A stretch of DNA of 64,000 nt, taken from Saccharicrinis fermentans DSM 9555 = JCM 21142 (GTDB lineage Bacteria; Bacteroidota; Bacteroidia; Bacteroidales; Marinilabiliaceae). The notes beneath the pieces are model-generated. The model searched no databases and was not told where the DNA came from. It worked only from the letters and a program-made list of their open reading frames with translations. Positions within the stretch are counted from its first letter, which is position 1. Every line of letters starts with the position of its first letter. Location of the stretch: assembly GCF_000517085.1 (NCBI RefSeq), contig NZ_KI912107.1:4399980-4463979 (forward strand), in the 5' to 3' direction. Position numbers and translations under genes: made by a program. Shown one piece after another: positions 435-23,965 of the stretch.

Positions 435-458
435 TAACAAAAATATAAGCATAAAAAA

Positions 459-487
459 AGTCGGGAAGTTGTTCCCGACTTTTTTTA
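459..487. terminator. Bidirectional intrinsic terminator
   Basis: The stem AGTCGGGAA (459-467) pairs perfectly with TTCCCGACT (472-480) around a GTTG loop. An A-run lies on the left and a T-run on the right, so it can terminate transcription from both directions. It separates the ferredoxin-type gene on the plus strand from the convergent minus-strand cluster. Confidence 0.9.
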
Positions 488-529
488 TATAGATCCTAAT
501 ATCTTTCTATATATTCGATCTCTAAGCTC

Positions 530-1091: not shown

Positions 1092-1110
1092 GTTGTTTAT
1101 AATAAAATAT

Positions 1111-2037: not shown

Positions 2038-2096
2038 GATATAGCTTGTTTAAATAATAAAAACTTCTGATTTATACTATAAAACCTAGTAAAAGG

Positions 2097-5171: not shown

Positions 5172-5202
5172 ATGTTAAATGATCAACAACTACTTAATCG
5201 GG

Positions 5203-5586
5203 TTAGTCTGTATAAACTTCGTATTCAAAAGGAATCTCAACGATATCGGCATATTCCTCACCTGCTTCCAACATATCTTCTTCCTCTTCGTGATAATGCC
5301 AAATAATTCTAACGTTTTTACCGCTTTCCACAATCTCCTCGAACTTCAATAAAATATCCAATATAATTTTTGAAGAAGCCGTGTTAAAGTACTCCAATTT
5401 AAAATTAAAACGTGTTTCTTCATTTGGTCCGCCTTCAGCATACGCATCAATCCAATCCAGGATTGGTTGATAGAATTGATTTACGTCCTCTGGTAATGAG
5501 CGCCCTGAAATTTCGAATTTTCCGTTGTCCTTATCAAGAATTACATTAGGAGTATCATCGGTTCCCTGAATATTGATAACTTCCAT
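5203..5586 (-). CDS. siaC: SiaC-family regulatory phosphoprotein (DUF1987)
   Basis: A 127-residue protein that fits the SiaC/DUF1987 family throughout its length. In Pseudomonas, SiaC is phosphorylated on a threonine by SiaB and dephosphorylated by the PP2C phosphatase SiaA, and the unphosphorylated form activates a diguanylate cyclase. Here Thr69 lies in FNTASSK, the position expected for the phosphoacceptor (from memory of the family). The gene is 21 nt after the SiaB-like gene. No diguanylate cyclase is present, so its target must differ or lie elsewhere. The gene symbol is given by homology. Confidence 0.85.
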   Translation of the reverse strand: MEVINIQGTDDTPNVILDKDNGKFEISGRSLPEDVNQFYQPILDWIDAYAEGGPNEETRFNFKLEYFNTASSKIILDILLKFEEIVESGKNVRIIWHYHEEEEDMLEAGEEYADIVEIPFEYEVYTD

Positions 5587-5607
5587 GGTTAGTTTTTTAT
5601 GTGTTAA

Positions 5608-6180
5608 TTACTTACTTCGTTTAATTGTCGATGTTAAAATAAAAAATGAAACTTCCTCATTCAGTTCTTTAAACTGATAGCCCAGTGTACTACCGGTCTT
5701 TTTGGCTATATCTATCAGTCCCAATCCGGCTCCACCTTTATCTGAGAGTTTTCCATCTCGCATTTGGTTCTTATAAAGTTCCGACAGGCCTTTTTTATCC
5801 AAAGAATTTACCTGTTCCAGGTTTTCAGTAAGCCCCGGCACTTTAGAATTTTTTATAATATTACCTGTAATAATATTATAGGAATCATCTCCTTTGCTTA
5901 CCATTACAATGCCTCGTCTCTCTTCTCCATCTTCCCCGCCCATTGAATCAGCATGCTTACTAATATTTTGCAAACATTCAACCATAACGTTGAACACTTT
6001 ACGTTGAACAGCATTAGATTCCTCGCTCTTGGCCAAATTTCTTTCCGTTAACGAGGTAAATGTTTTAGTGATATCTTGCGTTACTTCCCCTTCGTATACT
6101 AAACTAATTTCATTTGTTTTCATAGTTCGATACAGCTGGTAGGCAAAATCCAAAAAACTATGGTTATCAATATTTCCCAT
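5608..6180 (-). CDS. siaB: SiaB-family protein kinase
   Basis: A 190-residue GHKL-fold protein of the SiaB type. The N-box-like segment is ECLQNISKHAD (near residues 68-78), and a glycine-rich ATP-lid motif GGAGLGLIDIAKKTG lies near 149-163. The family phosphorylates SiaC, as anti-sigma kinases phosphorylate their antagonists. It lies between the PP2C phosphatase and SiaC genes with 25- and 21-nt gaps, the expected partner set. Kinase identity is well supported by family and context; direct SiaC phosphorylation is inferred. Confidence 0.85.
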   Translation of the reverse strand: MGNIDNHSFLDFAYQLYRTMKTNEISLVYEGEVTQDITKTFTSLTERNLAKSEESNAVQRKVFNVMVECLQNISKHADSMGGEDGEERRGIVMVSKGDDSYNIITGNIIKNSKVPGLTENLEQVNSLDKKGLSELYKNQMRDGKLSDKGGAGLGLIDIAKKTGSTLGYQFKELNEEVSFFILTSTIKRSK

Positions 6181-6205
6181 TGTAACAATTATTTAAAATG
6201 CAAAT

Positions 6206-8812
6206 TTACAATTCAATTCCAATTAAAAGAACGTCATCCACCTGTTTTTCTTTTCCCATCCACTCATAAAAGTCAGACGAAAAGTGACGTTCAAAATGTG
6301 CCATACTCAAATCTTCGCGTTCAGTCAGCGCCTCTCTGATTCTCTTAGATTGATACTTACGTCTTCTTTCTCCTCCCAACTGATCAGGTAAACCATCCGA
6401 AAATATAAAAATTTTATCTCCTTCTTCGTAAGCTATCTCGTGGTTCTCAAATTCCTTTTCTTTTTTCTTCAACAATGGTTTACCGCCAATACCTTTACGA
6501 CTTCCTTTATACTCGATAAGCTTACCTTTTCGCAACAAATATAAAGGATTATGTGCTCCCGCATATTGTATGGTCTTATTTTCTTTATTTATTTTACACA
6601 AGGCCAAATCCATTCCGTCGCGCCCGTTGTTTCCTTCTTCGTTCTGCTTTAAGGTAGTTCTTACACCCTCATGCAGCAGATCTAAAATTTTGGCTGCATT
6701 AAAATTATCATCAATATTTACGATGTTATTCAACAAGAAATAACCGATGAAAGAAAGCAAAGCGCCTGGTACACCATGACCAGTACAGTCTACGGCTGCC
6801 ACATAAAAAGTTTCATCTTTTTTTACAAACCATGGAAAATCACCACTGACAACATCTTTTGGACGATAAAAAATAAACGAGCGAGGGAAGTGACGTTGAA
6901 TAAACGAAGTATCTGGTAAAATAGAAGTTTGTATTCTTTGCGCATAATTGATACTATCGGAAATCTTCTTGTTTTTCTCCTTAATTTCCTGCTCAATCAT
7001 CTTAATCTCGGTCATATCATGCGCCACAAACAATATAGATTCCAACACGTTGTCTTCGCTATGTTCTGGTATCGCTTTGATTTGCATAATCTTGCTACCT
7101 TCTGGTGCAGCAATTTCCAATTCATCGATAATTTGCTCTTCGTTATTTTTAATTTCTTTGAGCACATTATTGATAAACTCGATGAAACGTTCATCAATAT
7201 GCAAGTCGTTGATTCGTTTTTTGGTGATCTCCTGAATAGAAAGCCCCATAAATTCAGATACCACGGGGTTGGCATACACCAGTTTTCCTGTCGTATTAAT
7301 ACGGATAATCATATCCGGAGAGTTTTCAGAAAGTGACTGCATTCTACTTTTCATCCTTTCCTCTTTCTCGGCACGTATACGTTCGGTGATATCCTGCGTA
7401 TTAAAGATGATACCTTTTATGGCAGGGTCATGCAACAAGTTTTTCCCTTTGGTTTCCAAAAACAATTTCTCACCTGATTTTTTAAGATAGGCATACTGAG
7501 CCACACTCTCCCCTCCAGGCGTTTGTTTAAGATATTCAAATAGCTTATTAATGGTTTTGTATCCCTTAGGTGTCATCAATTCAGGATCCATTCCCACAAT
7601 ATTTTCATCATCTGCATAACCTAAAATTCGTTTTACAGAAGGACTTTCAAAAACAAGTTGTTGATCTTCGTTATATATAGAAATAAATTCTGAAGCATTG
7701 GTAAGTAAGGCCACCATTCTTTTTTGACCATTTTCAACCTCCTGTATTTTAGACTCTAATAATTCATTTGATTGTTCCAGCTCTTCCTGGGCAATCATCA
7801 TTTCTCTGGCATTCTCTTTTAACTTCTCTTCATTGCGTTGCAAAGTAACAGTCATCTCCTGCGATTCCTTAAGCAGCACTTCTGTTCTAGCATTGATCTT
7901 TTGAGCATAAATAGTTCTACCAATCATAGAACTAAGTTCTTCGGCAAAATCGAGTTTATAGCTTGGTATATGGTCTTGTAAAAAAGCAACTTCCACAACA
8001 CCTTGTAGCTCATCCTCTTGCATTAAAGGTAAAATGAGTAGACTTTTAGGTTTAACATCATTGAGCAATCCGGATGTGACGGTAAAATAATCATCTGGAA
8101 TCTCAGTACGGTATATCATTGCCTTTTCATAGGCCACCTGTCCAACCAGTCCTCTCCCCACTTCAAATTCTTGTTTCACGAAACGCTGCCGATTAAAAGC
8201 ATAGGTTGCTCTGCTCACCAATTTATCATTTTCTAACAAATAAAAAGCACCCTGTATGGCATCCGTATATTGAATGATGGCTTTAATGATCTCAATAGAA
8301 AGTTCGTCAATTTTACGATACTTACGTAAAACCTCGTTGATAATATCTTTTCCTTTGGTAATCCATTTGACCGCCTCTTCCTTTTGGTTGGTTTCCATTA
8401 AGTTTTTGGCCAGATCTAACAACGAGGAATGATGATCGGTAATGTGCATGATTTTATTGTACTCCCCTTTACGAATCAGCTCAGCAACTTGGTGATTAGA
8501 CTCCAACTGGCTCTTAAGCTTAGCCAATTCCTTTTTCTGTTTGTTTTTTATATTCCTATCATGATTAATAAAAATAACAGCTCCCAATGAAACACAGGCG
8601 ACTAAAAAATCCACCAACCACACCAACCAGGTAGTATGAATTTTAACAATCGTTTTCATGGAAAAGGGCAAGCGCATGAAATCAATGAATCCGGCCCATA
8701 TCACCAAATATATCACCATTAAAAAAACAGTGATAAAAAACTTTTCGTGCTCTTTGATGAGTGCAAAGTTGAGATAATCTCGTATGTATTTACTGATCCT
8801 TTTAGCAGGCAT
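6206..8812 (-). CDS. Membrane GAF-PAS-PAS-PP2C phosphatase, SiaA-like
   Basis: 868 residues. Two membrane segments (about 26-45 and 60-84) are followed by a linker, a GAF domain (about 168-305), a coiled coil (about 310-365), two PAS domains (about 370-485 and 490-615), another short coil and a SpoIIE-type PP2C phosphatase (about 640-868). Phosphatase metal-site motifs are visible: VVSGDF, AAVDCTGHGVPGA, IFSDGLPDQ and the terminal VDDVLLIG. It should dephosphorylate the SiaC-like protein in response to a ligand or redox signal sensed by GAF or PAS. The order phosphatase, kinase, substrate matches siaABC. Its GAF is closely related to those in two neighbouring genes. Confidence 0.9.
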   Translation of the reverse strand: MPAKRISKYIRDYLNFALIKEHEKFFITVFLMVIYLVIWAGFIDFMRLPFSMKTIVKIHTTWLVWLVDFLVACVSLGAVIFINHDRNIKNKQKKELAKLKSQLESNHQVAELIRKGEYNKIMHITDHHSSLLDLAKNLMETNQKEEAVKWITKGKDIINEVLRKYRKIDELSIEIIKAIIQYTDAIQGAFYLLENDKLVSRATYAFNRQRFVKQEFEVGRGLVGQVAYEKAMIYRTEIPDDYFTVTSGLLNDVKPKSLLILPLMQEDELQGVVEVAFLQDHIPSYKLDFAEELSSMIGRTIYAQKINARTEVLLKESQEMTVTLQRNEEKLKENAREMMIAQEELEQSNELLESKIQEVENGQKRMVALLTNASEFISIYNEDQQLVFESPSVKRILGYADDENIVGMDPELMTPKGYKTINKLFEYLKQTPGGESVAQYAYLKKSGEKLFLETKGKNLLHDPAIKGIIFNTQDITERIRAEKEERMKSRMQSLSENSPDMIIRINTTGKLVYANPVVSEFMGLSIQEITKKRINDLHIDERFIEFINNVLKEIKNNEEQIIDELEIAAPEGSKIMQIKAIPEHSEDNVLESILFVAHDMTEIKMIEQEIKEKNKKISDSINYAQRIQTSILPDTSFIQRHFPRSFIFYRPKDVVSGDFPWFVKKDETFYVAAVDCTGHGVPGALLSFIGYFLLNNIVNIDDNFNAAKILDLLHEGVRTTLKQNEEGNNGRDGMDLALCKINKENKTIQYAGAHNPLYLLRKGKLIEYKGSRKGIGGKPLLKKKEKEFENHEIAYEEGDKIFIFSDGLPDQLGGERRRKYQSKRIREALTEREDLSMAHFERHFSSDFYEWMGKEKQVDDVLLIGIEL

Positions 8813-8821
8813 AATTCAAAT

Positions 8822-9634
8822 TTATAAAGACATTGCGTCAGCAATATAATTATTCAATTGTTCCCATTGGCTGTTGATACAAATATTTCCAAAGGTGGCA
8901 ATTTCTATTAATCCAATACAATGGTTATCCTTTACAATAGGTAAAAGGTAAATATATTTTGGTAATGAAGATCCAGAACACGACTCTATATTAAAATAAT
9001 CCGGATCCACATCTTCAATGACCATTGGTTCCATATCCTTAGCTGCTTGACCGTTTAATCCTTCTCCTAATACAATTTTTTTCGGTTGCATGTCGGGACC
9101 AAGACCGTAAGTAGCCTTTACGCTAAAACCATCAGAAGGTTCGTCATAAATATAACAAACGGCCAATCCAACTTCGTAAAGCTTGGCCATATTTTTCAAA
9201 AGCAGTCTTGCAAAAGCAGTCTCACTGTCGCATTCTTTAAGACCCTTTGATAAAATCCCGCCTAATCTCACAAACTCCTTCTCACTGGTACTCCCTTGAC
9301 TACCCTCATTTTTTATAGCAGCCATCTCTTCTTCGAGCTTGGCTATCTCCTGCGCATGCGCATCTTCTTTTGACTTAAGCAGCTCTTCATGTTGCGAATT
9401 TTCCTTAAAACTCACACGGATATGACGGTCGAAAAGATAAACGATACTTAAAAAAAAACCAAAAGAAAGAAACTCTACAATATAAAATTTAGGCATGAAC
9501 ACAAATTCATACACAAAAAAATACTTAACCAGAGCCAATAGAAATGCTCCTGCAGAAAAATAATATAATCTATTTAATGCTTTTCTCATATGCTTATATT
9601 TTCTTTCAATCGTCCTATGAATTCTTTCAAACAC
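8822..9634 (-). CDS. Membrane-anchored GAF protein without output domain
   Basis: 270 residues: two hydrophobic segments near 23-42 and 48-68, a coiled coil about 80-115, then one GAF domain (about 120-268). GEGLNGQ, DPDYFNIES and the following LLPIV segment align with the GAF domains of the 868- and 625-residue neighbours. There is no catalytic domain, so it probably acts by dimerising or by contacting a partner such as the adjacent phosphatase. It is 9 nt upstream of the phosphatase gene. Function beyond sensing is unknown. Confidence 0.8.
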   Translation of the reverse strand: MFERIHRTIERKYKHMRKALNRLYYFSAGAFLLALVKYFFVYEFVFMPKFYIVEFLSFGFFLSIVYLFDRHIRVSFKENSQHEELLKSKEDAHAQEIAKLEEEMAAIKNEGSQGSTSEKEFVRLGGILSKGLKECDSETAFARLLLKNMAKLYEVGLAVCYIYDEPSDGFSVKATYGLGPDMQPKKIVLGEGLNGQAAKDMEPMVIEDVDPDYFNIESCSGSSLPKYIYLLPIVKDNHCIGLIEIATFGNICINSQWEQLNNYIADAMSL

Positions 9635-9694
9635 ATTTATGCTTACTATACATTCAACTCATGAATAGCTGATCTTTATCCTTGTATACATACC

Positions 9695-10279
9695 TCAATG
9701 AAGACTGTTTAAAAAACGGATGATACCATCTGGCGACAAAACCTCGTTGGGTTCAAAAAGTTGAAGGGTAGATTTTGTCATTGTATCCACATCACAGGTA
9801 ACAGGATCTTGAACAATAGTATACCCTTTTTTTAAATTCACATCTCTCATTCCCTTGGCGCCATCCTTATTCGCTCCAGTCAATATAATACCCACCATCT
9901 TATCTCTAAAAGCATTAGCTGCCGAGGATAAGGTATAATCAATGGAAGGACGACTATGATTAAACACATTTTCGGTTGTTAAGCTAAACGTTGCATCAAA
10001 TTCAATAAACATGTGATAATTAGAAGGAGCCAAGTACACTTTTCCTCCCTCTATTTTATCCTTATCACAAGGCTCCACAACCGGCAAATTAGATTTAAGG
10101 TTTAATCCTTCCAGCAGTCCGGAACGTATATGTTTTAAACGGTGCATGCATATAATAATCGGATACTTAAAATCTGCATTAATATGCGAGAGGATTTTAG
10201 ACACAATTGAAAAACTTCCTGCCGATCCTCCAATAACTATACCTTTATAATATCTTTCCCTAGCTAATACCATAAGCAA
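9695..10279 (-). CDS. Stand-alone CheB-type methylesterase domain
   Basis: 194 residues comprising only the CheB catalytic domain, with no receiver domain. The triad appears intact: Ser in GGSAGS (near residue 19), His in CMHRLK (about 45) and Asp in LTGANKDGAKG (about 138). CheB removes methyl groups or deamidates receptor glutamines. Without a receiver it cannot be controlled by CheA phosphorylation in the usual way. It begins 2 nt after the degenerate CheR-like gene, forming a CheR/CheR-like/CheB-like set separate from the main cheB gene. Its substrate may be a receptor or another protein. Confidence 0.85.
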   Translation of the reverse strand: MLMVLARERYYKGIVIGGSAGSFSIVSKILSHINADFKYPIIICMHRLKHIRSGLLEGLNLKSNLPVVEPCDKDKIEGGKVYLAPSNYHMFIEFDATFSLTTENVFNHSRPSIDYTLSSAANAFRDKMVGIILTGANKDGAKGMRDVNLKKGYTIVQDPVTCDVDTMTKSTLQLFEPNEVLSPDGIIRFLNSLH

Positions 10280-10281
10280 TT

Positions 10282-11094: not shown

Positions 11095-11098
11095 TTTA

Positions 11099-11941
11099 CT
11101 ATTTAAGCTTTAAATGAAAAGTACTACTTTTAGTATAGACCATTCCATGTTTAACAAAGCGTGTTTTAAAAAAACCATGCAAAGCTTCGTGGGTACCCAA
11201 AATAAGCACACCACCATCATATAACTTATCAAAGAACTTTCTAACAATCTTTAGTTGCAACTCTGGATTGAAATATATGAGAACATTCCTACAAAAAATA
11301 ATGTCAAATTTCTGATAAAAAGGAATTTCTTCCACCACTAAATCATGCCTTCTAAACTTAGGAATAGCGGACATAAAATCCCGTATTTTAATTTTATCAT
11401 TCTCCCTATCCACCTCAAAATAATGCTCAAAGGGATTTCCTTTGGGTTTAATCTTATGCATTAAATCATTATAAACATCAATATATTGCGCATTAAATTT
11501 TAAGTCGTACTCCCCTTTCCTGGCCGCCTTCAGCACCTTATTATTCAAATCGGAAGCCACCACGTTTACCTTATCCAATAAGTTCATCTCATTGAATAAA
11601 ATTAAATTAGAATACACCTCCTGTCCGGTGGAGCACCCTGCATGCCAAATATTGATTTTATTTTTTTGTTTCAGTGCTGGAAAAACATTTTTATATAAAT
11701 ATTCCCATGTTTCCTCATTTCTAAAAAGTTCTGTTGTATTTACAGTAATATCATCTACCAACTGCTCACAAAATTCCCCATCACTTTTCGCCCTATTTAA
11801 GAGCTCATCCATACTTATATTTTGATCCTTCAGGATTTTATCGATACGCCTTTGAATGGAATTATCAGAATAATCACAAAAATTATAAGGTGTATGTCTT
11901 TTTAATTCCTGAAGGAAATCTCTAAATGTAATATTACTCAC
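11099..11941 (-). CDS. CheR-family methyltransferase (second copy)
   Basis: 280 residues. Near the N-terminus is the helical CheR domain; the catalytic domain carries the SAM motif HAGCSTGQE (about residues 100-108), an EMFR-like TELFRNEETW and the FCRNVLIYFNPE motif. CheR methylates receptor glutamates with SAM. It lies between the GAF-PAS-PAS gene (17 nt) and the degenerate CheR-like gene (4 nt). With the cheR at 16499 there are two apparently active copies in one cluster, suggesting different receptor or non-receptor substrates. Confidence 0.9.
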   Translation of the reverse strand: MSNITFRDFLQELKRHTPYNFCDYSDNSIQRRIDKILKDQNISMDELLNRAKSDGEFCEQLVDDITVNTTELFRNEETWEYLYKNVFPALKQKNKINIWHAGCSTGQEVYSNLILFNEMNLLDKVNVVASDLNNKVLKAARKGEYDLKFNAQYIDVYNDLMHKIKPKGNPFEHYFEVDRENDKIKIRDFMSAIPKFRRHDLVVEEIPFYQKFDIIFCRNVLIYFNPELQLKIVRKFFDKLYDGGVLILGTHEALHGFFKTRFVKHGMVYTKSSTFHLKLK

Positions 11942-11958
11942 TTTCCTCTGGTGTAAAA

Positions 11959-13836: not shown

Positions 13837-13928
13837 GATGATTGTATTAAAAATTACAGACCTATTTTTATAAGCCCGGCGAAATTATAAACTTTCTCAC
13901 AATACCACTCAAAAGTAATGGTAATGTT

Positions 13929-15056
13929 TTATAATAATTTTAAGAGGCTCGGTGCCATTTCATCTAAGGACAATATTTTACTGGCAGCACCTAATTTTGC
14001 TGCTTCTTTCGGCATTCCGTAAACAACAGAGCTACGTTCATCTTGTGCAATAGTATAAGCTCCAGACTCTTTAAGTTCAAGAAGGCCTTTGGCTCCATCG
14101 TTACCCATCCCTGTCAGTAACAATCCTGTAGCATTTTTTCCAGCATACCGTGCTGCACTCCTGAAAAGAACATCCACCGAAGGACGATGTCTATTAACCA
14201 GCGGACCATCTTTAATCTCCACAAAATACTCTTTACCCACCCTTTTCAACAACATATGGTGATTACCTGGGGCAATCAAAACTCTACCTTGATATAATTT
14301 ATCACCATTTTCGGCCTCTTTCACTTCCAGCTGACAGATATTATTAAGGCTATTAGCAAAGGACTTGGTAAACCCCTCTGGCATATGCTGAACAATAGCA
14401 ATACCCGGCATTTTATCCGGTAAATTCTTTAAGAAGTTTCGGATGGCTTCAGTACCACCTGTGGAAGCGCCCAAGACGATAACCTTTTCTGTAATAGCAA
14501 TTCTATCATAAGCCGATCCTCTTTCCAAAATAACATCGGCTGAATACTTGGGAGCAACCTCTAGCAGGCGTGTTGCCGGCTTTCGGGCCTTGGGCGTACT
14601 CGGTTGAGGATTAGTTGATATACCCCCATTAATTTTTTTACGCGACAGTTTAGCTTGAGCTGAAGCTTTTGCCGCATCACAGATTAATATTTTTGATTCA
14701 TTGATAAACTTAGCTGCATTCATGGCAGGTTTACCAATAATTTCAGATGCTCCATACTCCAATGCCTTCATGGCAACTTCGGTACCTTCGGTCGTTAATG
14801 AAGAAATAATAACCACCGGAATAGGATGCTGCGACATAATCTTTCTAAGAAATGTCAATCCATCCATCCTAGGCATTTCAATATCCAAGGTGATAACATC
14901 CGGCACCTCTTTCATGATCTTTTTTACTGCTATAATCGGATCTGCCGCTGTCCCCATCACTTCAATTTCGGGGTCAGACCCCAATATTGATGAAAGACTC
15001 TGCCTAACTACCGCTGAGTCATCCACTACTAATACCCGTATTTTATTCATCCTCAT
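13929..15056 (-). CDS. cheB: Chemotaxis response regulator methylesterase CheB
   Basis: 375 residues: an N-terminal receiver domain with phosphoacceptor Asp58 ([13 protein letters not shown]), a linker of about 60 residues and the methylesterase domain. Triad residues are visible in [10 protein letters not shown] (Ser), VQHMPEGFT (His) and [11 protein letters not shown] (Asp). It demethylates receptors when phosphorylated by CheA. The ATG at 15056 and a second ATG two codons later (MNKIRV) are both possible starts. It follows cheD. Confidence 0.95.
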
Positions 15057-15118
15057 ATCACAACGTTAAAAAGTCATTTGCTTCACATAATCCAACTGTT
15101 CGCCCTAAGGATCATCTT

Positions 15119-15589
15119 CTAATCCTTATTTTTATCCAACAGCTTATGTCTTACTTCACCAGAATCGGTAAAAAATATTATTTTTCTTCCTTTTCTACCT
15201 CCAGTACTGGATGCCACCACCGGAATTTTTCTTTCCTCCAGCATTAACATAGCCAGCCTTATGTTTCTTTCGCCAATCTTGGCTTTAGAACTCCCTGTCT
15301 GCATCATTTCACCTCCCCCAAATACTTTTGCCTGCAAGTCTTCGATTTTTGATCCTAAAAAAAGCATCCTATCAATTAACTTATCAATAGCTATATTGCC
15401 ATATTTTGGAGATGCCAAATCATTACCATTCCAGTTGGGCAACATATAGTGGTTAATACCTCCAATTTTCAATTTAGAATCCCACAAGCACACCGCCACA
15501 CACGAACCCAGTATTGTTTTAACCAGGTGTGGCTCCTTACTTGCAAACAAAGAGGAAGGATATAAAAAATGTTGTAAATATTGACTCAT
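15119..15589 (-). CDS. cheD: Chemoreceptor glutamine deamidase CheD
   Basis: 156 residues with the CheD catalytic pattern: the Thr/Cys segment TILGSCVAVCLWD near residues 25-37 and His in GGINHYMLP about 43-51. CheD deamidates receptor glutamines to glutamates that CheR can then methylate, and in some bacteria binds CheC. No CheC or CheX is seen in the window. It lies 10 nt after the histidine-kinase-like gene. Confidence 0.93.
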   Translation of the reverse strand: MSQYLQHFLYPSSLFASKEPHLVKTILGSCVAVCLWDSKLKIGGINHYMLPNWNGNDLASPKYGNIAIDKLIDRMLFLGSKIEDLQAKVFGGGEMMQTGSSKAKIGERNIRLAMLMLEERKIPVVASSTGGRKGRKIIFFTDSGEVRHKLLDKNKD

Positions 15590-15599
15590 CTATTTATCC

Positions 15600-16502
15600 T
15601 TAAAAAATCTCGTCCTCTTCATCGAAGAATATATCGTTACCATCACCACTAAAACCATCTACAATATTTTTGGCCTCCGGAACACTGATGGTAAAGGTTG
15701 AGCCATCTCCTTTTTTACTTGAAATTTCTATTTCACCACTTAATACATCCAAAAGAGCCTTCGTAATTGACAGTCCTAAACCATGACCCCGGTTGATAGA
15801 ATTAATGCCGGTATCCAACCTTTTAAAACGTTGAAAAATGGTTTGCTGATTTTTTTCTGAGATACCAGTTCCAAAATCCTGAACCGAGATCTTTAATACA
15901 TCATCATCGTCTAACCAAATAGATATGATAACTTTACTATCTTTATAACTATATTTTAAAGCATTATTAATAAGATTGCTTAAAATAAGTTTCAATTTTT
16001 CTGAATCAGTCTTGAAATAAAAGTTTTTACCAAAACCATGATCAATATTAAACTGAATATCAAAAGAGATACCCATTTTACGGCTAATGATATTAAATGA
16101 ATCAACCACCGTTTGAAGCAAACTTCTGATATTTACCTTGGCAATATTAGGTGCTATTTCACCCGCCTCAATTTTAGCCGCTACAAATATATTTTTCAAC
16201 TGAAAATCCAGGTTAAACGCTTCTGAATGAATCAAAGCAACCATAGACACCACTTTCTTCCAATCGTGTTTTTCAACAGACAGTATGGCTTTTGACAACC
16301 CGAGAATAGATGTAAAGGGGTTAACTATTTCATTTGATATATTTGATATAAAGTGACTTTTTAATGCTTCCGAATCTTTCAGCTTTTTAGAAACACTTTG
16401 TAATTCTAATGTAAGATCCTTAATCTCCTTTTCGCTGCTTTTTCCTTTTTCAAGCCGTTGTCTGAGCTCCTTTAGCAATTGTCTGTCAGATAAATTATTC
16501 AT
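15600..16502 (-). CDS. Histidine-kinase-like protein with Asn replacing the H-box His
   Basis: 300 residues. A short coiled coil (residues 8-45) is followed by a HisKA-like segment and a full HATPase domain: N-box LILSNLINNALKYS, G1 VQDFGTGIS and G2 RGHGLGLSI. The H-box reads FISNISNEIVNPF where active kinases have FxxNxSHEIRTPL, so the phospho-accepting histidine is asparagine; I checked the codon (AAT). It likely cannot autophosphorylate in the usual way, but could bind ATP, dimerise or phosphorylate another protein. It overlaps the upstream cheR by 4 nt, so it is translationally coupled to the chemotaxis operon. Confidence 0.85.
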   Translation of the reverse strand: MNNLSDRQLLKELRQRLEKGKSSEKEIKDLTLELQSVSKKLKDSEALKSHFISNISNEIVNPFTSILGLSKAILSVEKHDWKKVVSMVALIHSEAFNLDFQLKNIFVAAKIEAGEIAPNIAKVNIRSLLQTVVDSFNIISRKMGISFDIQFNIDHGFGKNFYFKTDSEKLKLILSNLINNALKYSYKDSKVIISIWLDDDDVLKISVQDFGTGISEKNQQTIFQRFKRLDTGINSINRGHGLGLSITKALLDVLSGEIEISSKKGDGSTFTISVPEAKNIVDGFSGDGNDIFFDEEDEIF

Positions 16503-17392
16503 GGTTGTAGTTTTGTGCTTTGTTTTTTTCTGAAAATTGTTGGTTTAATATGTTCTAATGGTACATCCATTCCGGTCAACGATTCCGAATGTCCTATAAA
16601 AAATATTCCTCCTGGTTTTAGATGCGTAATTAATTTATTGATTACACTTTCTTGTGTATCCCTATCAAAGTATATTAAAACGTTTCTACAAAATATCACA
16701 TCAAACAGCTCATTAATATTGGCATAATTTGAATCCATTAAGTTTAGATACTTCAAATTTAAATTACTTTGTAATTCAGGACGCACCTTTACAGTAGGAT
16801 TTTCTTTGTCTTTACTCTTTAGTAAATATCTTTTCTTAAGTTCCAAGGGAACAATATCCACCTTATTACTGGCATAAATACCTTTGGCTGCTTTACTCAA
16901 CACATTCTGAGAAATATCAGTACCCAACATTTTATAGGTAAATCCGGCATTTTCCCTTTTATGCTCGTTTAAGGTCATCGCAATGGTATACAATTCTTCA
17001 CCACTGGAACAACCAGCACTCCAAATTTTAAAGGTTTCTCTTGTTCCACGTTCAGTAAACATAGGCAAAACGTCATTCTTTAAAAAATCGAAATGAACCG
17101 GTTCTCTAAAAAAATCAGTTTTGTTGGTTGTTACCACATTTAAAAAATTGAATATTTCCTCCTTTTGGCCCTCTGCACTAAATAAATAATCCTTATATTC
17201 ACTATACGACTTCATATTCAACTGCCTGATTCTTTTGAGCAAACGTCCCTGTAACATCACTCTTTTAACGGGTGGCATTTTAATACCAAACTCATTAAAA
17301 ATGAAGCTACTAAATGCTGAAAAGTCTTTTTCAGAAAGTTCAGCCTTGAAACAATCAAGTTCATTTGAATATATATTACTTGGATCTGTCAC
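16499..17392 (-). CDS. cheR: Chemotaxis methyltransferase CheR
   Basis: 297 residues with the N-terminal helical domain (about 20-90) and a SAM-dependent catalytic domain: DFFREPVHFDFL, SAGCSSGEELYTIAM (SAM motif) and FCRNVLIYFDRD. It methylates receptor glutamates. It sits within the core chemotaxis set, sharing 1 nt with the CheW gene upstream and 4 nt with the kinase-like gene downstream, so it is likely the main adaptation methyltransferase for the neighbouring receptor. Confidence 0.95.
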   Translation of the reverse strand: MTDPSNIYSNELDCFKAELSEKDFSAFSSFIFNEFGIKMPPVKRVMLQGRLLKRIRQLNMKSYSEYKDYLFSAEGQKEEIFNFLNVVTTNKTDFFREPVHFDFLKNDVLPMFTERGTRETFKIWSAGCSSGEELYTIAMTLNEHKRENAGFTYKMLGTDISQNVLSKAAKGIYASNKVDIVPLELKKRYLLKSKDKENPTVKVRPELQSNLNLKYLNLMDSNYANINELFDVIFCRNVLIYFDRDTQESVINKLITHLKPGGIFFIGHSESLTGMDVPLEHIKPTIFRKKQSTKLQP

Positions 17393-17874
17393 TATTTTTT
17401 TATTTCATCAACAATTCTGCTTAGTTCTATAATCTCATTTTGACTGAACACCTCATCTGAGTTCAAAATCAAATAAAACTGTTCATCTATATTAATTGCA
17501 GCCTGAATATAATTAGGACTGTAATCATTATCAATGTTCTTAAAATCTTTCTCTTCAGCCTCAAAAACATCGCTTACGGCATCTGTAAGAATGGCCATTT
17601 TTAAAGTAGAATCATCATCTTTTCTTTTAACATCAATAATAATGATGCAGGTCAAAGGTGTTATTTCAATGGGTTTCATCCCAAACTTAACACCTGTATC
17701 AATCACAGGAATCACTTCTTCTCTATGATCGATAACACCAGTCATAAAGGAAATAGATTCTGGCATGTTACGCGGCACTTCATATTCGCGTATTTCATTC
17801 ACCTTGCTTACATGAATTGCAAAGGTCTCCGACCCCACCTTAAAAGACAGATATGAATTATTAATATCTTCCAT
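17392..17874 (-). CDS. cheW: CheW-like scaffold protein
   Basis: 160 residues consisting of one CheW domain (about 6-155): LSFKVGSETFAIHVSKVNEI at the start, then a glycine-poor core with VIDHREEVIPVIDTG. CheW couples receptors to CheA in the array. It lies between the other cheW gene (5 nt gap) and cheR (1-nt overlap). Two CheW paralogues may serve different array positions or receptors. Confidence 0.93.
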   Translation of the reverse strand: MEDINNSYLSFKVGSETFAIHVSKVNEIREYEVPRNMPESISFMTGVIDHREEVIPVIDTGVKFGMKPIEITPLTCIIIIDVKRKDDDSTLKMAILTDAVSDVFEAEEKDFKNIDNDYSPNYIQAAINIDEQFYLILNSDEVFSQNEIIELSRIVDEIKK

Positions 17875-17879
17875 ATCAA

Positions 17880-18335
17880 TTAATTTTTTCGTTCAATTTG
17901 TGATACAACATGCGTTAAATCAATCAGATGAACAAATTCATCTTTTACCTTAACCGTACCTTCAAAGCATTCGATCAAACCCATTTTATTTTCAAATACG
18001 GCTGGTTTTATTTGATCCAAAGGTACTTCAAAAACCTCTTTAACCATGTCAACCATAATACCGAATTGAGATTCTAACTTATCTTCAGGCGACACTATAA
18101 TGATAGACGTATCCTTTGTACGTTCCGCATCTTCCATATCCATTATTTTTCTCATATCTGTCACTGGTACAATGTTACCATGCAGATTAATAACACCTAA
18201 GATAAACTCACGTGTATTGGGCACTTTGGTCAAATTCCCTTCGTAAGGGAGTATATTACGTACCTTAAGACTATCAAAAGCAAATGTTTGTTCGCCAAGA
18301 CCAAAGGAAATTATTGTTACAAATTCACCTTCCAT
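17880..18335 (-). CDS. cheW: CheW-like scaffold protein (second copy)
   Basis: 151 residues, one CheW domain: FGLGEQTFAFDSLKVRNIL near the N-terminus and GVINLHGNIVPVTDM in the core, the classic CheW signature. It starts 2 nt after the CheA stop, so it is likely translated with CheA. It keeps the canonical motif better than the other copy and is probably the main CheA-receptor coupler. Confidence 0.95.
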   Translation of the reverse strand: MEGEFVTIISFGLGEQTFAFDSLKVRNILPYEGNLTKVPNTREFILGVINLHGNIVPVTDMRKIMDMEDAERTKDTSIIIVSPEDKLESQFGIMVDMVKEVFEVPLDQIKPAVFENKMGLIECFEGTVKVKDEFVHLIDLTHVVSQIERKN

Positions 18336-18337
18336 AG

Positions 18338-20377
18338 TTATTTATGTAATTTTTGGTTCGAATGAAATTGAACTAACCTATTAGTATCTATCACCATAGC
18401 AACAGAACCATCCCCCATAATAGAAGCTCCAGAAATCACTTCCTGATCTTTCAACAGCCTTCCAAATGGTTTAACCACTGTTTGGTATTCTCCAATTACT
18501 TCATCTACTATTAAACCAATTTGTCTATCCTCGTATTTGACTTGAATAATGTGTTCCTTTTCATCCGTAATCGCTTCCTTAAAAACACTCCTCAATCCAA
18601 TGACAGGGAATTGTTCTCCACCTAAAGTAATCACATCATTGAAAATATTTTTCTTATCCTCTTTTTCCAAAGGATAAATTTTTTCAATCGCAGAAATAGG
18701 AATGACATATTGCGATTGAGCAACTGTAACCAGTAGTCCATCAATGATAGATAGCGTTAAGGGTAACTCTAAAGTTACTGTAGTCCCCTTATCCACTTCT
18801 GAATCAATGGAGACTTCTCCCCTTATTTCACCAATTTTTCGTTTAACGACATCCATTCCAACACCGCGACCCGACAGGTCTGATACTTGTTCTTTGGTAG
18901 AGAATCCACTCTTAAAAACCAAATCTAGAATCTCCTTTTTACTTAGCTCAACCCCTTCTTCAACCAGCCCCTTATTAATGGCCTTATTCAAGATGAAATT
19001 AGGATCAATACCCTTACCGTCGTCAATAATCTTTATAATTACATTAGCACCTTCGTAATAGGCCCTGAATATGATATTTCCTTTGGGATTCTTTCCCTTT
19101 TTAATACGTTCATCAGGCATCTCAATGGCATGATCCACACAATTTCGTATCATATGAAGTAATGGATCGGTTAAGTGCTCAATAATATTCTTATCCAACT
19201 CAATATCGCCACCTTCAATGATAAAATCTATTTCCTTATTCAGTTCCTTAGATAAATCACGCACCAGCCGTTGAAACCTCATCAAATCATTTTGAATAGG
19301 AATCAGGCTAATTTCAAAGGCATTATCCCTCAATTGTCGAGTTAACTTCTGTATATTTTCAGAAAGCATAATGATTTGTGGATCACCGCTTTTCTTTTCT
19401 GCATACAAATTTAGTTGTGCCTGAATGGTCACCAACTCACTTACCAAATTAACCAGTTCATCAATTTTATTGGATGCCACCCTGATGCTGGAAATCTTAT
19501 GTTCCTTTAATTGCGGTTTCTTTGCTTTTTCAGCGGATACTTTTTTTTCTTCTCCTCCCCAGGATATTCCTTTAAGTAATGCAGCACTTAATTTCTCCTC
19601 CTTACGTTGGCACTTAGATATAATCTCCTCAAACAAAACATGATCGATAATATCACCATCAAATACCTCTGTAATCACTAAATCACACTCATCCTCCACA
19701 AAGATAAATACATCTTGAATTTCGTTAAGTGCCTCACTCGTATTTAAAACTATATCCCAACTAACATAACATTCTTGTGCTTCTAATTTGCTTAACTCAG
19801 GAACCTTTTCATCGTTGAACAAGACAACAGCCTTACCCAAGGCATGTAAATCATCCAACAAAAACATAACATTGGTTCCATTTTGCAGAATGTTTGCATG
19901 AGGCTTAAAGTTGATTAAATATGTTTTGGAGTGATCAGAAGGCTTCTCTTCCGAAATATTGTTATCCTTGGATTCTTCAACCGGTTTTTCCACCGCAGAA
20001 TCGGATACTAATCCTTGTACTTTACGTGTTAATGCTGCCAATTCCTGTTTATCTGAATTATCGGATAAATCACCCACATCCAGCAGATATTTTATTTGGT
20101 CAATAGCATTAAAAGTGACCGAAATAATCTCTTCAGAAACAGCCAGTTTTCCATTCCTAACCCAGTCATAAACAGTTTCTAAATGGTGCGTAAACTCACT
20201 CAAATCATTAAAACCAAACATAGCTCCACCACCCTTCAGAGAGTGCATAGCTCTAAAAATACGTTCAATTATTTCTTTGTCTGACCTATCATTTTCAAGT
20301 AGCAACAAAGCTTCTTCGAGGTCATGCACATTGTCGAGTGATTCTTCAACAAATTTGGCTCTAAACTTATCAATCAT
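18338..20377 (-). CDS. cheA: Chemotaxis histidine kinase CheA
   Basis: 679 residues in the usual order: P1 Hpt domain (1-105, phosphoacceptor His45 in AMHSLKGGGAMFG), a linker and P2-like region (about 150-270), dimerisation domain (about 285-345), ATPase domain (about 345-540, with HMIRNCVDHAIE and SDLSGRGVGMDVV) and a CheW-like domain (about 545-672). It autophosphorylates in response to receptors and passes phosphate to CheY and CheB. It follows the Hpt protein gene by 14 nt. All catalytic motifs look intact. Confidence 0.97.
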   Translation of the reverse strand: MIDKFRAKFVEESLDNVHDLEEALLLLENDRSDKEIIERIFRAMHSLKGGGAMFGFNDLSEFTHHLETVYDWVRNGKLAVSEEIISVTFNAIDQIKYLLDVGDLSDNSDKQELAALTRKVQGLVSDSAVEKPVEESKDNNISEEKPSDHSKTYLINFKPHANILQNGTNVMFLLDDLHALGKAVVLFNDEKVPELSKLEAQECYVSWDIVLNTSEALNEIQDVFIFVEDECDLVITEVFDGDIIDHVLFEEIISKCQRKEEKLSAALLKGISWGGEEKKVSAEKAKKPQLKEHKISSIRVASNKIDELVNLVSELVTIQAQLNLYAEKKSGDPQIIMLSENIQKLTRQLRDNAFEISLIPIQNDLMRFQRLVRDLSKELNKEIDFIIEGGDIELDKNIIEHLTDPLLHMIRNCVDHAIEMPDERIKKGKNPKGNIIFRAYYEGANVIIKIIDDGKGIDPNFILNKAINKGLVEEGVELSKKEILDLVFKSGFSTKEQVSDLSGRGVGMDVVKRKIGEIRGEVSIDSEVDKGTTVTLELPLTLSIIDGLLVTVAQSQYVIPISAIEKIYPLEKEDKKNIFNDVITLGGEQFPVIGLRSVFKEAITDEKEHIIQVKYEDRQIGLIVDEVIGEYQTVVKPFGRLLKDQEVISGASIMGDGSVAMVIDTNRLVQFHSNQKLHK

Positions 20378-20391
20378 CCGCCTGCTTTTTA

Positions 20392-20763
20392 CTAGATTAG
20401 AGACTCAAAAAAACGTAATGATTTATTAACGTCTTCCGAATCAAGGTTATTCTGTTGGATATTGCTCAATTCTGCTTTCAAAGCAGGAATAAGCTTCATC
20501 GTATTGGATACTATTTCCTCTGACAAAGAAAGGTTACCATTTCTGATCGCATTATAGACCCGTTCCATTTTCACGGCAATATCATCGAGACCTTCAATGC
20601 CAACCATTGGTGCAGTACCTTTAATTTTGTGCACTGTCATAAACACCTTTTCAACAACACCCTCAGGTGCATTGTTTGCCATATCGGCATTTAAATCATT
20701 TTCGATGGTCTTTAGATCATTAAGCGTATCGTTGATAAAACCTTTTTTTATCTTTTCTATCAT
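20392..20763 (-). CDS. Hpt-domain phosphotransfer protein
   Basis: 123 residues forming one histidine phosphotransfer domain, with phosphoacceptor His45 in VHKIKGTAPMVG. It resembles the P1 domain of the adjacent CheA and may have arisen from it. It overlaps the CheY gene by 4 nt. It could act as an extra phosphate shuttle or a sink between CheA-linked regulators, but there is no direct evidence for its partner. Confidence 0.9.
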   Translation of the reverse strand: MIEKIKKGFINDTLNDLKTIENDLNADMANNAPEGVVEKVFMTVHKIKGTAPMVGIEGLDDIAVKMERVYNAIRNGNLSLSEEIVSNTMKLIPALKAELSNIQQNNLDSEDVNKSLRFFESLI

Positions 20764-21125
20764 CTTAAAACTCTTGAAATAGCACTTAATAGTTTAGCTG
20801 GAACAAATGGTTTAATAATCCACCCTGTCGCACCGGCTTGTTTCGCTTCCATCTTTTTAGCCGCTTGCGATTCTGTTGTCAGAAACAAAATAGGAATATG
20901 CTTATAGGCATCTATTTCCCTTACTTTACGTATTAAACCCAAGCCATCTAGATTAGGCATATGCAAGTCGGTAATGATAATATCGATGGTTCTTCCATCT
21001 AAAAACTGAAGAGCATCCTCCCCATCAATACCTACCAAAACTTCGTACCCTTCGTTTTGCAAGGTGAAATTTACAACTTCCCTGATACTTTCAGAATCGT
21101 CAACAATAAGAACTGTTTTAGCCAT
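20760..21125 (-). CDS. cheY: CheY-like single-domain response regulator
   Basis: 121 residues, one receiver domain: acidic pair DD at 9-10, phosphoacceptor Asp53 (IITDLHMP), Thr/Ser in FLTTES and Lys in IIKPF. It is the likely diffusible output of CheA. In a gliding Bacteroidota it would act on the gliding machinery or another effector, not a flagellar switch. The gene lies between the STAS gene and the Hpt gene. Confidence 0.93.
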   Translation of the reverse strand: MAKTVLIVDDSESIREVVNFTLQNEGYEVLVGIDGEDALQFLDGRTIDIIITDLHMPNLDGLGLIRKVREIDAYKHIPILFLTTESQAAKKMEAKQAGATGWIIKPFVPAKLLSAISRVLR

Positions 21126-21143
21126 AATTTTGTTAATATTTTT

Positions 21144-21455
21144 CTATAGTTTAAAAAGGTCTCTAAAACCTGCATTTACAACCAGAGCGGACATATCATC
21201 ACTGAATGTTCCCTCCAAATTAAATGGGAGCCCTTTATTTTCATAAGCCAATTTAATCGAAAGAATAAATTGTATAAAGGTAATATCAATTCCGGTTGGG
21301 TTGTCAACCTTTACATTAAGATGTTTTGAAAAGTCAATTGTTTTCATCAACTCTTCTTTTATAATATCCGCATGGTTAATGATCAATTCGCCGGAAAGAA
21401 TCACTTCCTGCTTATTGTCATCATGCTTTATTTCAAGTGAAAATGGTTTCTCCAT
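21144..21455 (-). CDS. STAS-domain protein
   Basis: 103 residues with one STAS domain: LSGELIINHADIIKEEL and the loop NPTGIDITFIQFILSIK, matching anti-sigma antagonist or MlaB-like proteins. STAS proteins are often phosphorylated on a Ser or Thr in this loop (candidate Thr after GIDI). It lies between the chemoreceptor and CheY genes. It could link the chemosensory pathway with the partner-switching kinases further along (inference). Confidence 0.88.
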   Translation of the reverse strand: MEKPFSLEIKHDDNKQEVILSGELIINHADIIKEELMKTIDFSKHLNVKVDNPTGIDITFIQFILSIKLAYENKGLPFNLEGTFSDDMSALVVNAGFRDLFKL

Positions 21456-21480
21456 ATAGCAGCTTTAATAGTATATTGCC

Positions 21481-23208
21481 CTAGAATTTTTCATAATTAT
21501 CCATATCCATTTCTCTTTCCAGGTTAATCAAGTCATCTTTTCCTCCGGACACATTGGTTTGGCGAGGTTTCTTTTGTACACCTGACGCTTTTTTCTTTGT
21601 TTCCGCGTGACTATCCAAATCCTGATTAACAGTACTTGTCTGTTCATTACCTTCATCGCCGATGGTAAAGAAACTAACAGCTTCTTTTAACCTATCTGCT
21701 AACTCGGCCAACTGCTCGGCGCTTTGTGTTAACTCATCAGATGAAGAAGCATTTTCCTGAGTAATCAGGTTTAACTGCTGCATAGCCATATTAATCTGCT
21801 CGGCCCCTGTTTTTTGCTCTAAACTTGCTGCTGAAATTTCTTTAATGAGCTGAGTTGTTTTTTCAATATCTGGCACCAATAAGCGCGATTTCTCACCCGC
21901 TTCTTGTGAAACTTTTAGTCCGCCATTCACCAGGCTATGAATTTCATCTGCAGCCACTTTACTTCTCTCAGCCAGCTTACGTACTTCGGCAGCTACTACA
22001 GAGAAACCTCGACCATGCTCTCCGGCACGAGCAGCCTCTACGGCAGCATTCAGTGCCAATATATTGGTTTGAAAAGCAATATCCCCAATAATCGTAATTT
22101 TTTCAGCCACACTCTTCATAGAACTAGCTGCTTCTGACGACAGCTTATCTGCTACATTTACATCTTGTGCGGTTTCAACAGTAATTTTCTCTGTTTGAAC
22201 AGCGTTCTCCGTGTTTTGATCAATATTGGCAACCATCTCTTCAATAGAGGTAGACACCTCCTCAGCGGAGGCTGCTTGATCAGCAGATCCTTTTGACAAC
22301 TGTACTGAACTATCTTTAACGCTCTTTCCACTAGATACTAGATCGTTTGCATTCTCTTTAATTGCTATTACAATATTTTTGATATTTAAAGCCATAGCTT
22401 TAAGAGCATCAGCTAATTTTCCGATTTCATCATCTTGCTCAATCTCAAGTTCAGCTGTTAAATCACCCTTTCCAATGGCCTGCGCAAAAGCAACTCCTTT
22501 TGTTAAAGGCTCCACAATACTCTTGTACAACCAAAAAGCAATAACAACAGAAACAACCACCAAAATAATAACCATCATCAACACAAATCCGTTGAACCAA
22601 GCAAATGAATCATCCATTTCTTTAAGAGATGCAGTATTTAATCCATTAAACTTATCAACCAATACCGTTAATTCCTCCACAATTTCGTTACTCAATGTGA
22701 TGATTTCACCGTCTTCCTGAACCATAGGTTCCACCTCAAATATCACCATAACATCATCATAAGCCTCAAACGAGTTCAAACTACTCATGATATATTGATG
22801 TTTGGTAAACAATGAATCGGTTTTTAACTTAATTGAGTTAAAGATATCCTGATCAGATTTATCCCACTGCTTTTGATTTTTAGTAAGCTTTTCAATTAAA
22901 GCAGGATAATCTTTTGTGTGCAAATTTTCAAGTACTACCTTATCGGAAGTACCAGGCTGTCTGTCAATAAAAACCCAACTTTTTATCAAAGCCTTGGAAC
23001 TAATAACCATGTCCTTCAACTGTTGTATATTTTGTTCTGACGGACTATACACTCCGGTAATCTGATCACTTAAAGAACGACTATTATTTAGGGTAAAATA
23101 AGTAGAAACTCCATTAATAAGAATTGCCAGCAATAGAATACTAAAACCAGCAATCAGTTTTTGTGCGATATTTAATTTTATTTTCATTTGTCTAAAATTG
23201 TTTTTCAA
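21481..23208 (-). CDS. Methyl-accepting chemotaxis protein
   Basis: 575 residues: membrane segment about 15-35, a periplasmic helical bundle (about 36-205) resembling a 4-helix sensor, a second membrane segment about 206-229, HAMP (about 230-283) and the signalling hairpin whose tip reads [21 protein letters not shown] flexible tail of about 55 residues ends in NYEKF, which fits the xZxxZ aromatic pentapeptide used by some receptors to tether CheR or CheB. It is the only receptor in the window and opens the chemotaxis operon after the YfiR-like gene. The ligand is unknown. Confidence 0.95.
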
Positions 23209-23277
23209 TGGTCACATGAATCAGGTCATAAGAAATTTTTCAATGTAAAAAATACTCTCAGCCCCTTTCATCTAATC

Positions 23278-23790
23278 CTACTTTTTAATAGCAGCCGCCA
23301 TATTAGAAAGTTTGGAACTTATACTAAGACCTAAATTTTTTGCGTTTAAATCATGAATTTCAAACTTCAAATTATTATCCCTAACTACGAAGTTAATAAC
23401 TGAACCGTGTTTGGTAGCCCCTTCGGCCTCGGTAATTACCAGTGAACTTTTACCAATCTTTGAAAACAAAGTTTCCGAATGACGCGAAAAATTAACACTA
23501 GAAGAAACATATAACACCTGGCAATCAGTCACTTCATCCACAGAATTAAACTGCTTAATGACTACATTCTGATAACCGAACTTTTTACCACCTGATTGTT
23601 TAACCAGCCAATCCGCAATTTTCGAATTTTTTAAGACACCAATAACAAAGTCACCTTGTTTGGCATCATCTGGCCATCCTATATAACGGATAAAGTTTAG
23701 TGTAAATACAGACTTGTACTTTTCAACTTGACTGGAACCAATCTTTGGAACCGCCACCATAAGTATTAAGAGCAGTAAGATTTTCCTCAT
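23278..23790 (-). CDS. YfiR-family periplasmic protein
   Basis: 170 residues with a signal peptide (about 1-20) and a YfiR/DUF4154 domain: FTLNFIRYIGWPDD near the start, FVIGVLKNSKIADWL and the conserved GSVINFVVRDNNLKFEI. In Pseudomonas YfiR represses the cyclase YfiN from the periplasm. No YfiN-like cyclase is present here. It is the first gene of the minus-strand cluster, 69 nt before the chemoreceptor gene, so it may feed the receptor instead (inference). Confidence 0.88.
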   Translation of the reverse strand: MRKILLLLILMVAVPKIGSSQVEKYKSVFTLNFIRYIGWPDDAKQGDFVIGVLKNSKIADWLVKQSGGKKFGYQNVVIKQFNSVDEVTDCQVLYVSSSVNFSRHSETLFSKIGKSSLVITEAEGATKHGSVINFVVRDNNLKFEIHDLNAKNLGLSISSKLSNMAAAIKK

Positions 23791-23965
23791 ATCACAACAC
23801 TTTTTATATTTGTTTTCCTCCCCCTGTTACGGTTAGTATGATGAATAGGTTACTTTTTTTGTTTATAAAATGTTGAAAAAAACCCTAAGTATTAAAAATT
23901 AACTACACTAAATGATACCTTAATCAATAAAACAAATAAATTTGCCCCGTATTAATATTTAAGGA

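Follow-up and report, generated by a model that had tools for sequence, protein, structure and literature searches.

We analysed a run of genes in the marine bacterium Saccharicrinis fermentans DSM 9555 (family Marinilabiliaceae) in which a chemosensory gene set adjoins a partner switch of the SiaABC type. The run lies in a 64,000-nucleotide stretch of the genome, here called the window. An initial annotation, made from the letters alone, had described 20 collinear minus-strand genes with gaps of less than 100 nucleotides (nt), in which a full CheA/CheW/CheY/CheR/CheB/CheD set leads into a PP2C phosphatase, a SiaB-like protein and a SiaC-like protein. This description holds. Between positions 5203 and 23790, all 20 open reading frames (ORFs) are open, collinear and on the minus strand. 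The intergenic gaps range from -4 to 92 nt, the widest being between CheB and a GAF/PAS protein, and Pfam matches support the gene set. In order of transcription, the genes encode a YfiR-like protein, a chemoreceptor, a STAS-like protein, CheY, Hpt, CheA, two CheW proteins, CheR, a histidine-kinase-like protein, CheD and CheB. The order continues with the GAF/PAS protein, CheR2, CheR3, CheB2, a GAF protein, SiaA, SiaB and SiaC. Past SiaC, three more genes bring the run to 23: an ABCG-type transporter gene 31 nt on, a lipoprotein gene after a gap of 59 nt and, 125 nt beyond that, a gene for a small exported protein. A STAS protein and an ABC transporter had been placed at the flanks, and both assignments need correction. 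The STAS-like gene is the third inside the run. The transporter gene is also part of the run, and is the most constant neighbour of its SiaC. Among the loci listed, the closest named SiaB proteins are from Labilibacter marinus (93%) and L. sediminis (87%), of the same family.

The 23 genes probably form a single long transcription unit, which falls into three blocks (Table 1). Block A, from YfiR to CheB, is probably a chemosensory array. Block B is probably adaptation-like, with the GAF/PAS protein, CheR2, CheR3, CheB2 and the GAF protein, and ends in the SiaA phosphatase. Block C probably comprises the SiaB kinase, SiaC, the transporter with its TerB/FHA-like N-terminus, the lipoprotein and the small exported protein. 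We scanned positions 400-20300 and 20200-24000 for terminator-like hairpins, the longest of which is the one at the probable end of the run. Note that terminator-like sites, as a class, are little above chance in these stretches (16 vs 11.2, and 3 vs 1.8). In the 92-nt gap between blocks A and B, there is a weak hairpin (13878-13857) and a single promoter-like match; neither class of site exceeds chance expectation.

Table 1. Features of the gene run, in order of transcription (positions in the window; aa, amino acids)
Feature	Position	Strand	Basis or remark
YfiR/DUF4154 protein, first gene	23278..23790	-	Pfam PF13689, E 4e-30
Methyl-accepting chemoreceptor (HAMP-MCPsignal)	21481..23208	-	Pfam
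STAS-like protein, 103 aa	21144..21455	-	No Pfam match at 0.001; STAS E 0.0056, 16.9 bits vs cut-off 22.6
CheY	20760..21125	-	Pfam Response_reg
Stand-alone Hpt	20392..20763	-	Pfam; H45 in 24/24 rows
CheA	18338..20377	-	Hpt, H-kinase_dim, HATPase_c and CheW domains; H45 in 33/33 rows
CheW (first)	17880..18335	-	Pfam
CheW (second)	17392..17874	-	Pfam
CheR, array type	16499..17392	-	Pfam
Histidine-kinase-like protein	15600..16502	-	HATPase_c; Asn at phospho-acceptor His position
CheD	15119..15589	-	Pfam
CheB with REC domain	13929..15056	-	Pfam
Block boundary, 92-nt gap between CheB and GAF/PAS protein	13837..13928	-	Run split here in genomes G002, G005 and G026
GAF/PAS protein, 625 aa	11959..13836	-	Pfam
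CheR2, methyltransferase with intact S-adenosylmethionine (SAM) motif	11099..11941	-	Pfam; motif residues in 77/77 distinct rows
CheR3, CheR-like, degenerate SAM loop	10282..11094	-	Pfam E 2e-11, 44 bits; loop not conserved
CheB2 methylesterase, no REC domain	9695..10279	-	Pfam; Ser in 73/74, His and Asp in 74/74 distinct rows
Small GAF protein	8822..9634	-	GAF_2 E 9e-6, below cut-off
SiaA-like GAF-PAS-PP2C phosphatase	6206..8812	-	Pfam SpoIIE; PDB 6k4e E 1.3e-32
SiaB-family kinase	5608..6180	-	Pfam DUF6272; NF038262 175 bits, cut-off 85; PDB 6kko E 5e-16
SiaC-family switch protein	5203..5586	-	PF09345 E 1.6e-41, 141 bits vs 24.5; PDB 6kko E 7e-17
TerB/FHA-like/ABCG-type transporter, 1024 aa, proposed output	2097..5171	-	Pfam TerB, ABC_tran and ABC2_membrane above cut-off
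Lipoprotein, 308 aa	1111..2037	-	Lipobox by eye; Cys21 invariant in 38 sequences
151-aa protein with signal peptide (by eye)	530..985	-	Next gene after lipoprotein
Terminator-like hairpin, 18 pairs, probable end of run	450..489	-	Hairpin scan

The SiaA, SiaB and SiaC proteins look like working parts of a switch, judged by their residues, and would act as phosphatase, kinase and substrate. SiaA aligns to 6k4e, and its four metal-binding Asp residues are kept in 79/79 distinct rows. Likewise, E68 of SiaB, equivalent to the catalytic Glu61 of Pseudomonas SiaB, is present in 99/99. Thr69 of SiaC corresponds to Thr68 of the Pseudomonas protein and is found in all 100 distinct rows scoring at least 150 bits, or in 103 of 107 rows once weaker paralogues are added. 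Note that these counts refer to distinct sequences, and that weak paralogues were added for both SiaC and SiaB. The three proteins score below the NCBIfam equivalog cut-offs (169.1, 88.4 and 88.0 bits vs 700, 225 and 150 for SiaA, SiaB and SiaC). SiaC matches number 15 in G046, 20 in G052 and 16 in G060, and some of them stand in tandem (L179, L180). Two of these matches are apparent SiaB-SiaC fusions (L189, L190), each in a frame some 520 aa long with a SiaB match as well. In another class of the phylum (L173, genome G139), a histidine kinase gene, not a transporter gene, follows SiaBC.

The transporter qualifies as ABCG-type, with an ABC ATPase followed by an ABC-2 membrane domain; its TIGR00955 score is 245.8 bits, below the cut-off of 736. 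A model of its N-terminal part has a pLDDT of 86. We compared 80 named loci, the best 80 of at least 468 by SiaB similarity. SiaC directly follows SiaB in 80/80, and the transporter directly follows SiaC in 79/80 (gaps of 12-183 nt, median 37). The lipoprotein comes next in 74/75, then the small exported protein in 70/71, while SiaA precedes SiaB in 65/76. The lipoprotein has no Pfam or NCBIfam match and no informative fold match, and the small exported protein has no match in Pfam or NCBIfam. At two named Bacteroidales loci (L112, L113), the lipoprotein gene is doubled after the transporter.

The pairing of SiaC and transporter extends to whole genomes. Among 61 genomes (the source genome and 60 relatives), SiaC and the transporter N-terminus are both present in 46 and both missing in 13. 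None has SiaC only. Two have the transporter only, one being 72% complete (G021) and the other giving a weak match (G039). The Fisher p value, uncorrected for kinship, is 1.6e-11, and 5.6e-6 for the 24 genomes of other families alone. Gene positions were also compared for the 102 best SiaC matches: 42 lie no more than 400 nt upstream of a collinear transporter gene, and 30 are convergent to one. A transporter gene faces SiaBC in 26 of the 31 best-scoring SiaC loci (L001, L003-L032). In a sample of 118 genomes from across the phylum, SiaC occurs in five, the source genome included, and the transporter adjoins it in three (the source genome, G105 and G109). A second SiaBC-transporter locus of the source genome (L052 3912-8974; G000:C3 about 1618911-1623973) shows signs of decay. 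At the switch position, its SiaC carries Ala, and a DDE transposase ORF interrupts the transporter paralogue opposite, of which relatives have uninterrupted copies.

The array genes comprise a CheA with the expected domain set, CheW and an MCP, together with the adaptation proteins CheR, CheB and CheD, all recognised by Pfam. All three CheW-domain matches of the genome lie inside the run. Hence, the run appears to encode the genome's sole chemosensory system. There are 12 MCP matches in the genome, of which one lies in a short frame that contains a stop. The chemoreceptor of the run has two matches to a strict MCP-type methylation consensus. The first gene product scores 97.9 bits against the NCBIfam model YfiR_like_TOL0243, short of the cut-off of 125. 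The stand-alone Hpt label is missing at some Marinilabiliaceae loci. In the histidine-kinase-like protein, the ATP site is intact and N57 replaces the His in 31/31 distinct rows covering the position, five further rows being truncated there. The 31 include rows from array operons of other families (L165, L167, L168). One row with His (L070) was set aside, that kinase being non-orthologous. The STAS-like protein has a D-x-T motif at the usual STAS phosphosite position, with D57 in 24/24 rows and T59 in 23/24. These two proteins could form a second Ser/Thr pair.

The initial annotation had remarked that no diguanylate cyclase, the target of SiaABC in Pseudomonas, is present at the locus. As far as GGDEF domains go, this extends to the whole genome: there is no GGDEF match in any of the 61 genomes, in a search whose controls were positive in 8/14. 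Hence, a GGDEF cyclase cannot be the output of SiaC here. The YfiR family is likewise known from control of diguanylate cyclases. Thus, two proteins of cyclase-control families, the YfiR-like protein and SiaC, share one operon in a genome with no GGDEF match.

The initial annotation had proposed looking for the joint order in related genomes, and had named a lack of conservation as grounds for rejecting a single unit. The order is conserved. Our family sample held 37 Marinilabiliaceae genomes, the source genome included, from 21 genera. CheA through SiaB form one run on one strand in 26 of the 37, from 17 of the 21 genera (the window, L033, L035, L036, L038-L049, L054-L056, L058-L060, L064, L067, and L193 and L194, which represent G010 and G030). 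Profiles were built without L052, L053, L061 and L070-L072. Six genomes are split. In three, CheB is parted from the GAF/PAS protein (G002, L034/L161; G005, L037/L196; G026, L068/L172). In the other three (G019, G033 and G034), the break falls between SiaA and SiaB, which leaves SiaBC with the transporter (L057, L062, L063) and SiaA with the array (L162-L164). Hence, the seam is not between the Che set and SiaA, where it had been placed. Five genomes (G018, G020, G021, G032 and G036) were counted as neither joint nor split, because contigs were short, completeness was low or a matching SiaC was missing; SiaA and SiaB are not neighbours in G018 (L065).

In other families, the Sia genes stand without the array. 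SiaA-SiaB-SiaC-transporter occurs without adjoining CheA or CheW in 8 of 10 SiaC-positive genomes (L050, L051, L153, L154, L157-L160), and array operons lie away from the Sia block in G042 (L165), G053 (L168) and G060 (L167). We conclude that the joint run joins separable blocks. For the idea of array and switch as a single unit, the outcome is therefore mixed: the joint order is conserved in the family, but the Sia half stands alone elsewhere.

The second CheR/CheB group goes with the Sia half. CheR2 sits four genes upstream of SiaA, and the same block is found in L050, L153, L154 and L160. Two of these loci are from genomes G050 (90% complete, L154) and G054 (99%, L153), which keep CheR2-CheR3-CheB2-GAF-SiaABC-transporter and, genome-wide, lack any match to CheW or MCP. 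Hence, CheR2 and CheB2 go with the Sia block and need no chemoreceptors. Within 10 kilobases (kb) upstream, 24 of the 80 named loci have array genes, 35 have CheR2 without array genes and 21 have neither. Note that some of the 35 begin at a contig end (e.g. L075, L083). SiaA has a conserved coil at roughly residues 301-368, with a mean column identity of 0.718, close to the 0.743 of the PP2C domain. Elsewhere in the source genome, two CheB-CheR-PAS-kinase fusion proteins carry repeated NEEL coils (L199, L200).

Our data suggest that a SiaABC-type switch gates the ABC transporter and that, in Marinilabiliaceae, this switch has been placed under a chemosensory array. We rate this proposal as about evenly poised between right and wrong. 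In the proposed mechanism, SiaB would phosphorylate SiaC on Thr69, and SiaA would strip the phosphate from SiaC. Unphosphorylated SiaC would bind the transporter, probably at its N-terminal part or ATPase, and alter its activity; this step is modelled on SiaC and SiaD in Pseudomonas. CheR2 and CheB2 might tune block B by methylation and, in Marinilabiliaceae, the array may feed the same SiaABC switch, via SiaA. On genomic grounds, the putative link between switch and transporter is strong. Functional coupling of array and switch is plausible, because the two are joined in one family and because SiaA stays beside the array in the genomes whose SiaBC is at another locus.

Several points weigh against this proposal. 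Binding of SiaC to the transporter, its phosphorylation and the transport itself are all predictions from sequence. The array link to the switch is weak, gene order alone tying CheA or CheY to SiaA. Selection by SiaB similarity means that the 80 named loci favour one orthologue group, and a gene other than SiaA precedes SiaB in 11/76 of them. The switch Thr is missing in 4 of the 107 SiaC rows, all weak paralogues, one in an apparently shifted frame and one being the source genome's second SiaC. Among the 102 SiaC matches, 29 have no transporter gene within 20 kb downstream on the contig, and one has it at 12 kb. Two of the five SiaC-positive genomes in the phylum sample (G139, G169) are without the transporter. 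Hence, SiaC would have other partners too. Conversely, two of four transporter-type matches in the source genome have no adjoining SiaC. The FHA-like match before the ATPase is moderate, and no phospho-Thr-binding residues were evident by eye in its conserved columns. Of the 8 other-family genomes, only 4 have both CheR2 and CheB2 next to SiaABC (L050, L153, L154, L160); L051 and L158 have CheR2 without CheB2, and L157 and L159 have neither. Finally, block B proteins do not clearly exceed shuffled sequences in matches to the MCP-type methylation consensus. Mean matches per protein, vs shuffles, are 0.43/0.72 for SiaA, 0.29/0.20 for the GAF protein and 0.21/0.84 for the GAF/PAS protein; for MCPs (n=5), the values are 5.2/0.84. 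Hence, the consensus points to no substrate for CheR2 or CheB2.

Mere co-expression could also account for the joint run. Array and SiaABC-transporter block would then share a promoter, and serve the same lifestyle (e.g. on surfaces), with no signal between them. We take this to be a serious contender, if short of an even chance. The blocks are separable, as the six split genomes show, and other families keep arrays (L165, L167, L168) and Sia blocks (L050, L159, L160) at different loci. CheB2 has no REC domain and, hence, offers no obvious target for CheA. In addition, the source genome has a GldJ match just above the cut-off and, by profile search, no flagellin match. Against this, the joint order recurs in most of the family sample and genera, and SiaA lies with the array in G019, G033 and G034 despite SiaBC being elsewhere.

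It is rather unlikely that SiaC instead acts on another target in trans, the transporter being only a conserved neighbour. Transporter-free SiaC loci are common in the genomes with many SiaC matches (G046, G052, G060), as such a role would allow. However, there are two SiaBC loci each paired with its own transporter paralogue, one collinear and one convergent. Hence, shared transcription alone is no explanation for the pairing. Tighter integration than we propose, with the output of CheA, CheY or Hpt directly setting SiaA, possibly via the His-less kinase-like protein and the STAS-like protein, seems improbable. The ATP site of the kinase-like protein is intact, with Asn for His in every row that covers the position, and the D-x-T motif of the STAS-like protein is nearly invariant. 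Yet both proteins also occur in Sia-free array operons of other families (L165, L167, L168) and, hence, need not serve SiaABC. Furthermore, a more distant array (L166) is without a STAS label, and Pfam finds no receiver domain in SiaA. Chance, or a merely inherited gene order with no function, can be set aside as highly implausible: some genes upstream of the run (homologues of Fkb, MMPL, PPS and ATPb) are kept as well in L161, L196 and L198, but Sia-block order is kept across families at 45-61% SiaB identity (L050, L051), and ORFs beyond the gene at 530-985 vary in size and strand between genera (by eye, with no homology test).

Returning to a switch that gates the transporter, we offer a broader and more tentative scenario, which is on balance unlikely to hold in full. 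A CheR/CheB adaptation pair would have come loose from chemoreceptors and become part of a SiaA/B/C switch, directly gating an FHA-like ABCG-type exporter in bacteria without GGDEF cyclases. In Marinilabiliaceae, this assembly would then have been put under an array. If so, chemosensing would govern envelope export rather than, or besides, a motor. The clade, with SiaABC and no GGDEF match, thus presents a specific and testable alternative target for SiaC. Similarly, the CheR/CheB-like enzymes of genomes without a CheW or MCP match (G050, G054) raise the question of their targets outside chemotaxis.

Among open-access papers in PMC, judged by titles and the starts of abstracts, we found none that described SiaABC genes joined to chemosensory ones, and none that paired SiaC with an ABC transporter. 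The closest likeness is to SiaABCD of Pseudomonas aeruginosa, which has a PP2C phosphatase, SiaB and SiaC in the same order (PMC7647112, PMC8457831); the key residues of all three proteins (Thr in SiaC, Glu in SiaB, Asp in SiaA) are conserved here. In that system, SiaC is described as acting by activating a diguanylate cyclase, and phosphorylation of T68 largely blocks binding of SiaC to SiaD (PMC8457831). By contrast, there is no SiaD or GGDEF match here, an ABC transporter follows SiaC, and a CheR/CheB pair and an array are linked. Note that DUF1987 proteins in general have been suggested to modulate adjacent proteins (PMC8457831).

Two systems resemble the proposed output. In MlaFEDB, MlaF is the ABC ATPase and MlaB a STAS protein that binds it, less tightly with a Thr52Glu change (PMC7367683). 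The likeness lies in control of an ABC transporter by a small protein of the STAS type, whose binding surface includes a Thr. The differences are that phosphorylation of MlaB is without evidence in the part of PMC7367683 considered, that the transporter is of another type, and that SiaC is only structurally related to STAS proteins. Rv1747 is an ABC exporter with an FHA domain, bound by the phospho-Thr partner Rv2623 (PMC5549992), and is linked to the kinase PknF (PMC3908365). It is thus alike in being an FHA-bearing ABC exporter regulated through Thr phosphorylation. Here, however, TerB precedes a single FHA-like domain without an evident phospho-Thr motif, and the proposed switch is SiaB/SiaA/SiaC.

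Two further systems resemble the proposed input. In Bacillus cereus, methylation by RsbM adjusts the PP2C partner switch RsbK-RsbM-RsbY, outside chemotaxis (PMC4574943). There, as here, a methyltransferase gene adjoins a PP2C switch. Unlike CheR2, which has a CheB-like partner, RsbM is described, in the part of PMC4574943 considered, as an orphan without a cognate methylesterase. Lastly, the run has the complete Che set of an ordinary chemosensory operon, and differs from one by the added CheR/CheB group and the SiaABC-transporter block.

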